Assembly: GCA_003695725.1 (NCBI GenBank)
Contig: RFHX01000018.1
Coordinates: 1 to 6,910, forward strand
Length of the DNA: 6,910 nucleotides
Reading direction: 5' to 3'
Origin: J061 sp003695725 [NCBI: Candidatus Schekmanbacteria bacterium]
GTDB lineage: Bacteria; Schekmanbacteria; GWA2-38-11
Shown: positions 2,110 to 6,910 of the stretch, one piece after another
How positions within the stretch are numbered: position 1 is the stretch's first letter
Layout: each line of letters starts with the position of its first letter
Notes under the pieces: generated by a model
Seen by the model: the letters and a program-made list of their open reading frames with translations, nothing else
What the model was told of the DNA's origin: nothing
The model's database searches: none
Program-made: the position numbers and the translations under genes

Positions 2110-3375
2110 ATGGAAAAGATACTGTTAAAAAATACTGATTTTGATGACCAGCCACAGATCGATGCGGCGCTTTCTCGCGGTGCCTATAAAGCCCTCGAAA
2201 AAGCCGTTTCAATGGCTCCGGAGACAATAGTTGAAGAAGTTAAGAAATCAGGATTGAGAGGGCGCGGAGGAGCAGGTTTTCCTACCGGATTAAAGTGGTC
2301 ATTTATCCCAAAAGATACAACACTTCCAATTTATTTGGTATGCAATGCCGATGAAGGAGAACCGGGCACTTTTAAAGACAGACATATTATTGAAAGAGAC
2401 CCTCATCTTTTAATCGAAGGCATAGCCGTTTCAAGTTATGCGCTTAAAGTGAAAACTGCTTATATATACATAAGAGGAGAATTTTATAAAGGCGCGATGA
2501 TGCTTGAAAAAGCAATTGATGAAGCCAAGGAAAAAGGTTTTTTGGGAGAGAATATACTTGGAAGAAATGGCTTGAACATCGATATCATTGTTCACAGAGG
2601 AGCGGGTGCATATGTTTGTGGTGAGGAGACATCCTTGCTCGAGTCTCTTGAAGGGAAACGGGGTTATCCCCGCTTGAAACCGCCTTTCCCTGCAACTGTT
2701 GGCGCCTTTGATTGTCCTACTGTAATAAACAATGTAGAAACCTTGGCTTCTGTGCCATGGATAGTTTTGAATGGCGGTGATGCCTATGCTTCCATAGGCA
2801 CTGAAAAGAGCAAAGGGACAAAGCTTTTCAGTGTTTGCGGAAAGGTAAATAGGCCGGGAGTATATGAAATTGACCTTGGTTTGCCACTTAAAACTTTTCT
2901 TGAGGAATCGTGTGGAGGTATAAAGGATGGAAAGAAACTAAAAGCAGTAATTCCCGGCGGTTCTTCTACACCAGTACTTCGAGCTGAAGAAATAGAAAAG
3001 GTTAATCTCGACTATGAATCTGTAGCTGAGGCAGGGTCGATGCTCGGGTCGGGAGGAATGATTGTTTTTGATGAAAGCGATTGTATGGTTGAAGCAATAA
3101 CAGTGCTTGCTCATTTTTATGCCCATGAATCGTGCGGACAGTGCACTCCTTGCAGGGAGGGAACGGCGTGGATGGCACGGATTTTGAAGAGAATTTTGAA
3201 TGGTGAAGGAAAGATATCGGATATCGACCTGCTTTTGGATATCTGTGACAACATTAGTGGAAAAACAGTATGTCCTCTGGGAGATGCGGCTGTTATGCCT
3301 GTGCAGAGCTTTATTGAGAAGTTTAGAGACGAGTTTGAGTATCACATACAAAATGGTAAATGTAATGTTAAATGA
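2110..3375 (+). CDS. nuoF: NADH-quinone oxidoreductase subunit F (NuoF), NADH- and FMN-binding
   Basis: NuoF oxidises NADH, binds FMN and holds [4Fe-4S] cluster N3. From the ATG at 2110 it has 421 residues, within the usual size range. In order it shows the glycine-rich FMN/NADH segment GRGGAGFP (51-58), NADEGEPGTF (79-88), the first 51-kDa signature GAGAYVCGEETSLLES (164-179), and the second signature ESCGQCTPCREG. The N3 ligands are Cys342, Cys345, Cys348 and Cys388, the last in TVCPLGD. Every catalytic motif is intact, so it should be a working NADH dehydrogenase subunit. It follows nuoCD by 4 bases. The partner NuoE, which carries N1a and usually lies between nuoD and nuoF, is not encoded here. 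Related NuoF-like subunits occur in NAD-dependent hydrogenases and formate dehydrogenases, but the nuo neighbours on both sides settle the role. An upstream GTG start at 2089 would add 7 residues and is less likely. Confidence 0.96.
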   Translation: MEKILLKNTDFDDQPQIDAALSRGAYKALEKAVSMAPETIVEEVKKSGLRGRGGAGFPTGLKWSFIPKDTTLPIYLVCNADEGEPGTFKDRHIIERDPHLLIEGIAVSSYALKVKTAYIYIRGEFYKGAMMLEKAIDEAKEKGFLGENILGRNGLNIDIIVHRGAGAYVCGEETSLLESLEGKRGYPRLKPPFPATVGAFDCPTVINNVETLASVPWIVLNGGDAYASIGTEKSKGTKLFSVCGKVNRPGVYEIDLGLPLKTFLEESCGGIKDGKKLKAVIPGGSSTPVLRAEEIEKVNLDYESVAEAGSMLGSGGMIVFDESDCMVEAITVLAHFYAHESCGQCTPCREGTAWMARILKRILNGEGKISDIDLLLDICDNISGKTVCPLGDAAVMPVQSFIEKFRDEFEYHIQNGKCNVK

Positions 3376-3391: not shown

Positions 3392-4954
3392 ATGCCAAAA
3401 ATAACTATTGATGGAAAGGAATTTGAATTTGAAAAGGGTGAAAGTATTCTGCAGGTAGCGGAAAGAAATGGTATTGAAATACCTCATTTTTGCTACCATA
3501 AAGACCTGCCTTGGGCTGGCAATTGCAGAATGTGTCAGGTAGAAGTTGAAAAGATGCCTAAATTAGTCATCTCATGTGCCACTGTAGCCCAAGATGGGAT
3601 GGTCGTCCATACAAATAGCCCTCGTGTCCGTAAAGCGGTGAGAGGTGTGCTTGAATTCCTTTTACTCAACCATCCGATTGATTGTCCAATATGCGACCAG
3701 GCAGGAGAATGTTATTTACAGGATTATTATATGAAGTATGGTTTGCATGATTCTCGAATTGATCTTTCTGAAAAGGTGAGAAAGAGAAAGGCAATTCGAT
3801 TGGGTGATATGATTGTCCTTGATACAGAAAGATGTGTTCTCTGCTCACGTTGTATTCGTTTTTGTGAACATATTACTAAAACAGGAGAATTTGGCTTTTC
3901 TTATAGAGGCAATCGCACTGAGATAGGCACTTTTTATGATGCTGTAGTTGACAATCCCTATTCAGGGAATCTTGTCGATATTTGTCCGGTAGGAGCGATT
4001 ACGAGCAGAGATTTCAGGTTTAAATGCCGAGTATGGTTCCTTGAATCTACGGAAACAATATGTCCTTCTTGTAGTACAGGATGCAATATCTTTTTGGATA
4101 CAAAGGACGGCATTGCCTACAGGATTCGCCCCAGATATAATCCCGATGTTAACAAAAGCTGGATTTGTAACGAAGGGAGGCTTTCTTATAAATTATTGAA
4201 TGATGAGGCAAGACTTCTTCAGCATTTAGAAAAAGAGAATGGGGCATATAAATCCTTAAGCTATGAGAATGCCATTGAAAAGACAACGGAAAAGATAAAA
4301 AGAATTGTATCTTCTAACAATGAAAAAGTCTTGGCTATTGCTTCTCCTGATGCTACCAATGAAGACATATACCTCTTTAAAAAAGTCTTTTCCCATTACA
4401 TTAGGACACCGCACATTTATCTTGGTGAGACATCAGGAAAAGAAGATGCCGAAAAGAGGGAAGACCAGATTTTAAGGCGAATTGATAAACATCCAAATAC
4501 TATGGGCGCAATTTTTATGGGAATTAGTACTCCTCCGGGAGGTAAGCTAACTCCACAAAAAGCAGCAGAAATCATTAAAGCTAACGATATAAAAATGCTT
4601 TATTTTATGTCGCCGTCGCTCATAAAAGAAGGTGAAAATTCAGAAGAATTCATAAATGCATTAAAAGGAGTAGAGCTTATTATTATTCATTCTATGTTTG
4701 TTGTGCCTTCTAATTTTCCGGTAAATTATGTTTTTGCTTCATCATCTTATGCTGAGGTATCAGGTACTTTTACAAATTATGCAGGGAAGGTGCAAAGAAT
4801 TAAAAAAGCTCTGCCGAATAAGGGAGATGCAAGAGGACATTATGAAATACTGCAGGATATACTTTTTGAAATTTCCGGTGAGAAGAGATATGAAAAGGTA
4901 GAGGAAATATTTGAAGAAATTAAAAGGGAATATGAACAGTTTTCTAACCTTTAG
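3392..4954 (+). CDS. nuoG: NADH-quinone oxidoreductase subunit G (NuoG), short form
   Basis: NuoG carries the iron-sulfur chain that moves electrons from NuoF toward NuoI. Its 520 residues include a [2Fe-2S] ferredoxin-like domain (about 1-80; N1b ligands Cys34, Cys45, Cys48, Cys62), the His-Cys3 N5 site (His94, Cys98, Cys101, Cys107), N4 (Cys148, Cys151, Cys154, Cys198), and the start of a molybdopterin-oxidoreductase-like domain with an N7-type set (Cys224, Cys227, Cys231, Cys259). N7 is kept only in some bacteria. The C-terminal domain is much shorter than in E. coli NuoG (about 900 residues) or mitochondrial forms (about 700). It still ends with the familiar GTFTNYAGKVQR segment (458-469), so the loss is internal and not a cut-off end. 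It starts 16 bases after nuoF with only a weak ribosome binding site. The family is certain; the N-terminal half alone could be mistaken for a hydrogenase diaphorase subunit. Confidence 0.95.
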   Translation: MPKITIDGKEFEFEKGESILQVAERNGIEIPHFCYHKDLPWAGNCRMCQVEVEKMPKLVISCATVAQDGMVVHTNSPRVRKAVRGVLEFLLLNHPIDCPICDQAGECYLQDYYMKYGLHDSRIDLSEKVRKRKAIRLGDMIVLDTERCVLCSRCIRFCEHITKTGEFGFSYRGNRTEIGTFYDAVVDNPYSGNLVDICPVGAITSRDFRFKCRVWFLESTETICPSCSTGCNIFLDTKDGIAYRIRPRYNPDVNKSWICNEGRLSYKLLNDEARLLQHLEKENGAYKSLSYENAIEKTTEKIKRIVSSNNEKVLAIASPDATNEDIYLFKKVFSHYIRTPHIYLGETSGKEDAEKREDQILRRIDKHPNTMGAIFMGISTPPGGKLTPQKAAEIIKANDIKMLYFMSPSLIKEGENSEEFINALKGVELIIIHSMFVVPSNFPVNYVFASSSYAEVSGTFTNYAGKVQRIKKALPNKGDARGHYEILQDILFEISGEKRYEKVEEIFEEIKREYEQFSNL

Positions 4955-4984
4955 AAATTGATTATTTAGTGAAGAAGTGTAAAA

Positions 4985-5485
4985 ATGGCAAAAACAAAAA
5001 TAGCTGAAGTTGAAGAGAAAAACATTGTGGCAACTATTAAGGGCCTTGCTGTTACAATCGGTAATTTTGCAACAAATCTCTTTAAAAAAGACAGGCCCAC
5101 AATAGAGTATCCTGATGAAAAGCGAGAATATTCTGAGAGAGTCAGAGGTGTGCATATCCTTACAAAGAGAGAAGATGGAAGCCCCAAATGTGTTGCCTGT
5201 TATATGTGCGCAACGATTTGTCCTGCGCAATGCATTACCATAGTTGCTGAGGAGCATCCTGATGATACAATTGAAAAAAGGCCAAAGAGTTTTGAGATAG
5301 ATATGCTTCGATGCGTTTTTTGCGGATATTGTGTGGACGCCTGTCCTGAAGAAGCCATTATAATGAGCAATGAAATAGAGTGCGCATTCTATTCCTATGA
5401 TGAGCGCAATTACAATATTGATATATTGAAAGACAGACCTTCTTTAAAAGATTCTAAACTTGGATATAGACCGGATAAAGATTAG
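4985..5485 (+). CDS. nuoI: NADH-quinone oxidoreductase subunit I (NuoI), 2x[4Fe-4S] ferredoxin-type
   Basis: NuoI carries clusters N6a and N6b, which link NuoG to N2 on NuoB. The 166-residue protein has two ferredoxin-type motifs: CVACYMCATICP (69-80) and CVFCGYCVDACP (110-121). By the family pattern one cluster is held by Cys69, Cys72, Cys75 and Cys120, the other by Cys79, Cys110, Cys113 and Cys116. The segment HILTKREDGSPKC before the first motif is typical of NuoI and separates it from generic ferredoxins. Residues about 13-33 form a mildly hydrophobic, probably amphipathic helix, as expected for docking onto the membrane arm; there is no true transmembrane segment. The gene starts 30 bases after nuoG, with a purine-rich GAAGAAG at 4971-4977. 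nuoH, normally between nuoG and nuoI, is absent here, and nuoJ does not follow. Confidence 0.97.
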   Translation: MAKTKIAEVEEKNIVATIKGLAVTIGNFATNLFKKDRPTIEYPDEKREYSERVRGVHILTKREDGSPKCVACYMCATICPAQCITIVAEEHPDDTIEKRPKSFEIDMLRCVFCGYCVDACPEEAIIMSNEIECAFYSYDERNYNIDILKDRPSLKDSKLGYRPDKD

Positions 5486-5524
5486 TTTTCAATAATAAGG
5501 TTGTCCTTTTTAAAAATTCATTTA

Positions 5525-6640
5525 ATGGCTTCTCCAAAAGATTTTATCAATTTGCTTTTTTTGGGAAGGAAGAGAATATCTTTTGATGAGTATGTCGATT
5601 TTGTTCTCCATCATCCTGAATATGGATATTATGGCAAGTCAAACAAGAGGAGAGGGCTTGGCGAAGATTTTTATACTGCCCCCCTTTTAAGCTTTGCTTT
5701 TGGAAAATGTATATCGAATTTTTTGATTTCCACACTCAGATTTTTCCCCTCAAATAAAAAATTGACTATTCTTGATGTGGGTGCAGGAAATGGAATGCTA
5801 TTGAAAGATATTTTTTCATCTTTATCGGCGGAAAGAGAAAAAAATATTCAATTTTTCTTTTGTGCTGTAGAGCAGAAGGATATTTTAAGGAATGAAATCG
5901 AGGAAAGATTCAAAACATTGAGCCAACATATCGGAATAAATGAGAAATTGGAAGATGTTGAGTCATTCGATGGAGTTGCCTGTTTCAACGAATTCTTTGA
6001 TGCACTGCCTTTTAGCAGAGTTAGAATAGAAGGAGTAAGAAGGGAGGAAATATATGTCGAATGCCACGATGGTGTCTTTGAGGAAAAGAAGGGGAAGATT
6101 TCATCTGATATAAAATCAGCAGAATGCAGAAGATGGTTTAAAGATTTTTTAGGAAGAGGGGAAGTCGATATTTGTCCTTTTTATGAAGATATTTTTAAAA
6201 AACTTTCTGCAAAAATGAATAGTGGTTTTGTCTTAATTATAGATTACGGAGATAGTGCATACAAATTATATGATAAGGATTTCCCTCAGAGTACGCTGAG
6301 ATGTTTCAGCAGAAATCGAGTAAGCAAAAATCCTTATATTCTTCAAGGTGAGCAGGATATAACCTTTTCTGTCAATTTTTCTGAAATTGCCTTTCAAGCA
6401 AAGAGACATGGATTTAAGGTAATAGATTTCATATCACTTCAAACTTTCCTTATCAGGTGGGGAATCCTTGATATTGTTTCTTCCCTTGCATCAGACAGCG
6501 CCATTGATATAAAAAGATATAATGAAATTCAAAAAATAAAAAACCTTCTTCTTCCCGGAAGTTTGGGTGAAGTCTTTAAGGTTCTTATGTTGGCTAAGAA
6601 TATAAAAGAAGATTCTTTTTGCAAAGAAACCGATTTTTAA
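5525..6640 (+). CDS. MidA/NDUFAF7-family SAM-dependent methyltransferase, likely acting on NuoD
   Basis: This belongs to the SAM-dependent methyltransferase family (COG1565, formerly DUF185) that includes Dictyostelium MidA and human NDUFAF7. From the ATG at 5525 it has 371 residues, the usual length. Visible family motifs are HPEYGYYG (30-37), GEDFYTAP (46-53), the SAM-binding loop LDVGAGNGML (83-92), an acidic residue after the next strand in VEQKDILR (115-122), the family hallmark NEFFDALP (155-162), IDYG (239-242) and GEQDITF (275-281). The late motifs diverge: Asn264 stands where many members have His, and SVNF replaces a common HVDF-type end. NDUFAF7 dimethylates an arginine of the NuoD homologue NDUFS2, and the neighbouring NuoCD has the matching arginine (Arg214), so I infer the same job here. 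No signal peptide or membrane segment is seen. The start is uncertain: neither this ATG nor the in-frame TTG at 5501 has a well-spaced ribosome binding site. The family call is firm; the substrate is inferred. Confidence 0.88.
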   Translation: MASPKDFINLLFLGRKRISFDEYVDFVLHHPEYGYYGKSNKRRGLGEDFYTAPLLSFAFGKCISNFLISTLRFFPSNKKLTILDVGAGNGMLLKDIFSSLSAEREKNIQFFFCAVEQKDILRNEIEERFKTLSQHIGINEKLEDVESFDGVACFNEFFDALPFSRVRIEGVRREEIYVECHDGVFEEKKGKISSDIKSAECRRWFKDFLGRGEVDICPFYEDIFKKLSAKMNSGFVLIIDYGDSAYKLYDKDFPQSTLRCFSRNRVSKNPYILQGEQDITFSVNFSEIAFQAKRHGFKVIDFISLQTFLIRWGILDIVSSLASDSAIDIKRYNEIQKIKNLLLPGSLGEVFKVLMLAKNIKEDSFCKETDF

Positions 6641-6674: not shown

Positions 6675-6910
6675 ATGAGTGAATGTTTTTATTATCTCCT
6701 ATCAAAAATTGACTATGAAGAGGGATTGAAGCTTCAAAGGGCGGCATTCCAAAAAGTATCGTCAGGTGATGTTGGCAATATTCTTCTCCTACTTGAACAC
6801 AATCCTGTTATAACTTTAGGTAGAAGAGGAAAAAAAGAAAATCTTTTAGTGGAGGAATCATTTCTTAAAGAAAAGGGAATAGGTTTGTATAATGTTGAAC
6901 GCGGTGGTGA
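6675..6910 (+). CDS. lipB: Octanoyltransferase LipB (lipoate biosynthesis), 3'-truncated by the window edge
   Basis: LipB moves an octanoyl group from acyl carrier protein to lipoyl domains of enzymes such as pyruvate dehydrogenase, before LipA inserts sulfur. Only the first 78 codons are present, open to the end of the window. They start MSECFYYLLSKIDYEEG and contain LLLLEHNPVITLGRRG (39-54), ENLL, and NVERGG at the edge, matching the family pattern LLLEHPPVxTLGRRG followed by an RGG segment. The conserved region with the catalytic cysteine and lysine lies beyond the window, so activity cannot be judged. The gene begins 34 bases after the methyltransferase with no clear Shine-Dalgarno site. 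The short spacing and shared direction suggest co-transcription. Assignment rests on the N-terminal motif only but is distinctive. Confidence 0.9.
   Translation, partial: MSECFYYLLSKIDYEEGLKLQRAAFQKVSSGDVGNILLLLEHNPVITLGRRGKKENLLVEESFLKEKGIGLYNVERGG

Follow-up and report, generated by a model that had tools for sequence, protein, structure and literature searches.

Organization of the midA locus

The window, by which we mean the whole stretch of DNA analysed here (6910 bases), is one complete contig (C18) of a draft genome of 2.77 Mb which is 97.84% complete. Open reading frames and profile searches identify, on the + strand throughout, a set of complex I (nuo) genes followed by a gene of the COG1565/PF02636 type, referred to below as midA, and by lipB. 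The features are:

2 to 439, + strand: nuoB, 5′ end lost at the contig start (PF01058, 3.4e-28; TIGR01957 above cut-off)
426 to 2105, + strand: nuoCD fusion (PF00329 and PF00346; TIGR01962 491.6 bits, cut-off 459.35)
1065 to 1070, + strand: Arg214-Cys215 of NuoCD, the position of bovine NDUFS2 Arg85 by sequence and alignment, with Cys next and not Gly
1125 to 1127, + strand: Arg234 of NuoCD (codon AGA), the position of bovine Arg105 and position 60 of the NuoD query
2110 to 3375, + strand: nuoF (TIGR01959 633.9 bits, above cut-off; frame open from GTG 2089)
3392 to 4954, + strand: nuoG, short form of 520 aa (TIGR01973 3.4e-127, below cut-off; relatives 66% and 53% identical)
4985 to 5485, + strand: nuoI (TIGR01971 above cut-off; no nuoH in the nuoG-nuoI interval)
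5525 to 6640, + strand: midA, NDUFAF7/MidA-family (COG1565, PF02636) methyltransferase (alternative start TTG 5501)
5774 to 5794, + strand: DVGAGNG of MidA (Gly86 and Gly90 invariant, Gly88 nearly so, in an alignment of 25)
5987 to 6010, + strand: NEFFDALP of MidA (Asn155, Glu156, Asp159 and Pro162 invariant in the alignment of 25)
6675 to 6908, + strand: lipB, 3′ end lost at the contig end (PF21948)

NuoB is the subunit which binds cluster N2. The part of nuoCD from base 948 served as NuoD query in the searches described below and Arg214 (codon 1065-1067, CGT) is position 40 of this query. Neither nuoE nor nuoH occurs within the 6910 bases. NuoG is short (the corresponding frames of relatives are 534 and 560 aa). 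As the earlier note on this DNA had stated, the COG1565-type gene lies 39 bases 3′ of nuoI on the same strand if ATG 5525 is the start; the gap is 15 bases from TTG 5501. Between 4900 and 6910 there are no terminator-like sites, and the five promoter-like sites (one at 5467-5496, + strand) do not exceed the mean of 8.1 in shuffled sequences. The succession midA-lipB is common to the window genome and to a relative of the same family, G001 (lipB at L013, 6371-7063).

The source genome is, as judged from its genes, one with two complexes I, gene names being partly read from translations. One would be split: the window carries its peripheral arm and contig C117 (L410) its membrane arm, with nuoA-, nuoH-, nuoJ-, nuoK- and nuoL-like frames together with nuoE- and atpE-like frames. 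A second set, with nuoC-, nuoD-, nuoH-, nuoI-, nuoJ- and nuoK-like frames, lies on C104 (L415). On these two contigs NuoH was located by search and the second NuoD (NuoD2) by alignment, the other names being readings of translated frames. Since the peripheral-arm genes of the window are apart from the membrane-arm genes of C117, midA is grouped with the peripheral arm of the split complex.

Family membership and predicted fold of MidA

PF02636 matches the window MidA with 3.4e-37 and 128.7 bits (curated cut-off 23.3) over positions 1-247 of 249, while no NCBIfam profile matches at E 0.001. Its solved relatives by sequence are 4f3n (COG1565, Burkholderia thailandensis), 5ztz (Dictyostelium MidA) and 1zkd. 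A structural model of the protein (mean pLDDT 86.5) retrieves in a fold search, as its top six chains, 4g67, 4f3n, 5zu0, 5ztz and chains A and B of 1zkd, which belong to five COG1565/MidA entries, with TM scores by query length of 0.80-0.83; the other matches listed reach at most 0.46. The predicted fold is thus that of the MidA/COG1565 structures and not that of a generic methyltransferase. The residues conserved in the family are kept, as seen in the alignment of 25, which includes the window protein: NExxDxxP, DYG and the glycine-rich DVGAGNG, which we take to be the motif of class I methyltransferases. Membership of the NDUFAF7/MidA family, as judged from sequence and model, is solid. Another PF02636 match in the source genome (C85, 23 bits) was set aside as a 259-aa frame resembling a generic methyltransferase.

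Conservation of gene order in related genomes

The order nuoB-CD-F-G-I-midA also occurs in G001 and in G002, one of two further genomes of the same order, so that every genome of the order with the gene, three in all, has it after nuoI; PF02636 finds nothing in the remaining relative, G003 (70% complete). The neighbourhood is therefore not unique to the window contig, the circumstance which would have told against the earlier note. Despite the kept gene order, MidA of G001 and G002 is only 43% and 34% identical to that of the window.

This divergence bears on whether midA is decaying or already inactive in this order and is now without function. The idea draws on the long branches of these MidAs, on the 43% identity between window and G001 compared to 75% for NuoI, and on codon 183 of midA in G002 (L014), which is an in-frame TGA although the frame is otherwise full length and the genome 99% complete. 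The TGA is a single codon in one assembly and may be an error. Against decay, neither the window copy nor that of G001 is truncated and both have the shared motifs, the window protein keeps the columns which are invariant in 25 sequences and its model is well formed. We consider loss of function very improbable.

Linkage of midA to complex I genes across bacteria

We scanned one genome for each of 84,980 species, confirmed at least 577 relatives and examined the best 80. The flanks fetched for these loci contain a window-type nuo gene in 22 cases. One (L022), with a NuoG-like match on the opposite strand, was set aside, leaving 21 linked loci, all on the same strand as midA: 10 of 16 in Nitrospirota, 7 of 31 in Cyanobacteria, 3 of 9 in Acidobacteria and 1 of 4 in Aquificota. 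These counts are lower bounds, since many loci end at contig ends. The partners differ between lineages. In Nitrospirota midA is followed by nuoB-nuoCD and, in the two loci read (L074 and L027), a nuoA-like frame, named from its translation, lies between midA and nuoB, five bases from midA in L074. Cyanobacteria have ndhH then midA, their flanks being without other window-type nuo genes; Acidobacteria have nuoB then midA, and Persephonella nuoCD-nuoI-midA.

When linkage is mapped onto a quickly built tree of 97 MidAs, 11 label changes are required, each a gain or a loss, of which at least six are forced by supported branches, some "unlinked" entries being on short contigs. This tree omits 14 MidAs from Cyanobacteria, another 10 which are short or weak, and three (L206, L214 and L215) which gave no tblastn match. 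A wide sample of 386 genomes, comprising the order itself and a draw over the domain, includes 41 MidA genomes from outside the order; in six of these the fetched flanks, at most 10 kb long, contain a window-type nuo gene (L018, L183, L184, L208, L217 and, on the opposite strand, L215). The MidAs of L183 and of L052 are identical and probably represent one species seen twice. At L018 (genome G034) a ferredoxin-type, glycolate-oxidase-FeS-like frame, by its translation, occupies 4578-5897 between midA and nuoB. With 6 of 41 genomes, and with several phyla having different neighbours, linkage is recurrent but not the rule.

Proximity was also measured in 156 genomes from the phylum of G324, which is taken to be cyanobacterial from the place of its MidA in the tree (MidA cut-off at least 100 bits). 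A NuoD/NdhH gene lies within 5 kb of midA, on the same strand, in 10 of 73 MidA genomes, upstream in eight and downstream in two. About 0.16 would be expected from random placement in an assumed genome of 4.8 Mb, a figure to be read with the non-independence of related genomes in mind. One more ndhH-midA pair lies at a contig end in G193. The earlier note had proposed a survey for adjacency of COG1565 and nuo genes beyond chance, and such an excess is what this phylum provides, with recurrence in others.

Co-occurrence of MidA and NuoD

In the wide sample, MidA was defined by PF02636 at 50 bits or more (44 genomes in 29 families) and NuoD by E <1e-60, both cut-offs being chosen post hoc. All 44 MidA genomes have NuoD, compared to 175 of the 342 others (Fisher 2e-12; with G193 scored as NuoD-negative, 1e-10); the total with NuoD, 219 of 386, includes G193. 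This genome was considered as a case of MidA without NuoD and rejected: its midA contig stops within an adjacent ndhH-like match, and other fragments read HRG. PF02636 matches occur in 54 genomes, and the 10 which fall below 50 bits were excluded; seven of these 10 have NuoD at <1e-60. G008 has 23.5 bits for PF02636 in one listing and is absent from the wide-sample matches. Within the cyanobacterial phylum NuoD/NdhH is present in 73 of 73 MidA genomes (G193 by its contig-end fragment) and in 16 of the 83 without MidA.

A genomic tie of midA to complex I beyond the window contig is strongly supported. The earlier note had called the gene a complex I maturation gene, and gene order and co-occurrence bear out the tie to complex I.

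Such a tie might also arise if midA acted only on some other protein or on nucleic acid and its place among nuo genes reflected shared expression in respiring cells. The neighbour on its other side, lipB, both in the window and in G001, lends itself to this idea, since lipB is not known to have a role in complex I. In addition, adenine and cytosine methylation has been reported for a Wolbachia MidA expressed in E. coli (PMC12455994, in the part of the text available). Simple hitch-hiking sits poorly, however, with links to different nuo or ndh genes according to lineage, the partner in Cyanobacteria being the gene for NuoD/NdhH, with strict co-occurrence in two samples and with the action of the human and Dictyostelium enzymes on NDUFS2, as described in the available portions of PMC3829151 and PMC9006661. 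We regard it as improbable and retain an enzyme acting on complex I as the preferred reading.

Sequence context of the candidate target arginine

The earlier note had pointed to Arg214 and Arg234 of NuoCD and to their 20-residue spacing, exactly as in the bovine protein. Both residues are present and so is the spacing. It carries no evidential weight, since NuoDs of MidA-free genomes keep it too: the second arginine is at this distance in all 179 NuoD copies spanning the site, with and without MidA, and even where Thr, Ser, Cys or His takes the place of the first arginine.

The residue following the first arginine is more informative. Bovine Arg85 is followed by Gly and Arg214 of the window by Cys; most methylated arginines precede Gly according to Carroll et al. 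(PMC3750175, available excerpts). NuoD copies were read at this site for every one of the 44 MidA genomes and, out of 175 genomes which have NuoD but lack MidA, for 145, a non-random choice by available coordinates which took about one of the better matches per family. G009, whose match stops short of the site, was excluded; in the cyanobacterial sample the site was read in G049, G193 and G324 only. Second copies were incompletely read, two or more copies being covered in 12 MidA genomes and 44 others. At least one copy has Arg in 44 of 44 MidA genomes and in 124 of 145 without MidA (Fisher 0.005), and at least one has Arg-Gly in 44 of 44 compared to 75 of 145 (Fisher 4e-11). In 49 sampled genomes Arg is present but never followed by Gly, and MidA is absent from all 49. 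The nine MidA genomes which were added by way of loci also have an Arg-Gly copy without exception, and the midA-linked NuoDs readable in the best 80 loci are all Arg-Gly (17 of 17: 10 Nitrospirota, six Cyanobacteria and one Persephonella). A tree of NuoD fragments, built after masking the motif columns, yields six supported independent pairs, too few for an ancestry-aware test, so that shared descent may account for part of the Arg-Gly tie.

Four MidA genomes with Thr at the site (G034, G140, G277 and G247) were considered as counter-examples and dismissed, as each has a second, Arg-Gly NuoD. In four genomes from acidobacterial midA loci (G539, G540, G542 and G543) a Thr copy is likewise accompanied by an Arg-Gly copy. 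Seven genomes (G034, G140, G277, G539, G540, G542 and G543) therefore have two NuoDs which differ, Thr or Arg-Gly, at the N2 arginine:

Thr NuoD copies: L354, L352, L356, L351, L357, L355, L358
Arg-Gly NuoD copies: L365, L364, L367, L362, L369, L363, L366

In G247 the NuoD near midA (L215, opposite strand) is Arg-Gly and the distant one (L160) Thr. In G034 midA is near the operon of the Thr-type NuoD and the Arg-Gly copy is on another contig; adjacency is thus not always the mark of the target. Covariation of MidA with the NuoB residue after CPP was also considered and rejected, as CPPR occurs with and without MidA; in loci where NuoB and NuoD were both read, all Thr-type NuoDs came with CPPR.

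In the order of the window, NuoCD of all four genomes (G000-G003) reads HRC and all four also carry a NuoD2 which reads HRG; in the source genome, HRC is in the window and HRG on another contig. Loss of the second complex I followed by midA in G002 was ruled out by a NuoD2 fragment at a contig end which reads HRG. The earlier suggestion that the probable substrate residue is encoded in the same transcript as midA has become doubtful: the adjacent NuoCD is Arg-Cys, whereas the MidA genomes sampled all have an Arg-Gly NuoD and the source genome has its own elsewhere.

It could be, on the other hand, that specificity has shifted and that MidA of this order has adapted to the adjacent Arg-Cys NuoCD, Arg214 being the real target and NuoD2 a secondary one or none. 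In keeping with this, each of the three midA genomes of the order has the gene 3′ of the nuoI that belongs to the Arg-Cys operon, and a long internal branch (1.11) leads to the MidAs of window and G001. Against it, MidA genomes elsewhere always had an Arg-Gly copy, as do all four genomes of the order itself, and in G355 and in G541, the latter from an acidobacterial locus, which hold one Arg-Cys and one Arg-Gly NuoD each, the nuoB adjacent to midA is not that of the Arg-Cys operon. Such a shift seems to us unlikely, if worth keeping in view. Modification of an NuoD arginine without an exclusive shift to Arg214 remains our preferred reading: the HRG copy fits the pattern across genomes better, NuoCD fits gene order, and both may be modified.

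Probable function of MidA

From these observations we infer, with a probability of roughly three in four, that the window gene encodes a SAM-dependent protein arginine methyltransferase of the NDUFAF7/MidA family which symmetrically dimethylates the NuoD arginine beside cluster N2 early in assembly. The protein is encoded together with the peripheral-arm half of the split complex I (nuoB-CD-F-G-I-midA) and, by analogy with mitochondria, is predicted to modify the 49-kDa/NuoD subunit at an early stage. Candidate targets are Arg214 of the adjacent NuoCD (HRC), the NuoD2 arginine (HRG), or both. Counted against this explanation are the Arg-Gly motif in 75 of 145 MidA-free genomes and the HRC motif of the adjacent NuoCD.

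Relation to known systems and significance

In the available excerpts of PMC3750175, NDUFS2 Arg85 is described as symmetrically dimethylated in cow, human, Pichia and Paracoccus, the equivalent arginine of E. coli as unmodified and the Thermus residue as Thr; NDUFAF7 is the enzyme responsible in human cells (PMC3829151, in part). A 2022 review, in the text available, describes bioinformatic and structural evidence as pointing to the same activity in alphaproteobacterial homologues and cites Shahul Hameed et al. (2018) for this (PMC9006661). In our 14 control genomes PF02636 occurs in three (Caulobacter, Synechococcus and Haloferax) and hence in neither E. coli nor Thermus composti, the control lists being taken as the same.

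The window protein resembles human NDUFAF7 and Dictyostelium MidA in sequence family (5ztz), in fold (5zu0 and 5ztz, TM 0.82-0.83 by query length) and, by analogy, in its expected target subunit, NDUFS2 being NuoD. In contrast, the window gene is bacterial and lies in a nuo operon beside an Arg-Cys NuoD, with a second NuoD in the genome. Paracoccus denitrificans has a bacterial complex I in which the same arginine, Arg65 of NDUFS2/Nqo4, is dimethylated according to the accessible reports (mass spectrometry in 2013, cryo-EM density in 2024) but, unlike the window organism, is alphaproteobacterial. The Burkholderia thailandensis (4f3n/4g67) and Rhodopseudomonas palustris (1zkd) proteins are of the same superfamily by sequence and fold, but their database titles say at most "likely methyl transferase". 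E. coli also has a NuoCD fusion with the arginine conserved, but there it is reported as unmodified (PMC3750175, in part) and PF02636 is absent from the control genome.

The earlier note had inferred that arginine methylation near N2 would be an ancestral bacterial feature. Bacterial methylation as such is not new: it is already published for Paracoccus denitrificans (PMC3750175 and PMC11522691, as far as their available text goes), and a proteobacterial origin is reportedly stated in the title of the paper by Shahul Hameed et al. (2018). In its accessible part the 2024 structure paper gives one bacterium only as having the N2-adjacent modification (PMC11522691), and a term search of the available text of two NDH structure papers found neither "methylat" nor "dimethyl" (PMC7021789, PMC12170339). 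Among the titles and abstract openings searched, a search outside which most subscription papers lie, none reports midA-nuo/ndh linkage. As far as these searches go, recurrent linkage outside Alphaproteobacteria, the Arg-Gly signature and the predicted modification of NdhH look new.

Taken together, we lean somewhat towards a reading in which methylation of the N2-adjacent NuoD/NdhH arginine, dependent on MidA, is a maturation step of complex I that is widespread in prokaryotes, extending beyond Alphaproteobacteria to Nitrospirota, Acidobacteria, Aquificota, some archaea and cyanobacterial NDH-1, with Arg-Gly as its genomic signature and with mitochondria having inherited one branch. In some cyanobacterial lineages midA is just downstream of ndhH, which belongs to the photosynthetic NDH-1. 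The gene survey points to many more bacteria, including cyanobacteria, in which the modification is expected, and MidA-free genomes with and without Arg-Gly provide natural controls. Where one genome has both a Thr and an Arg-Gly NuoD, it is worth asking whether the N2 potential differs between the two complexes. It can now be tested at what time this modification first appeared and whether its role lies in assembly or in the tuning of cluster N2, the last iron-sulphur cluster.
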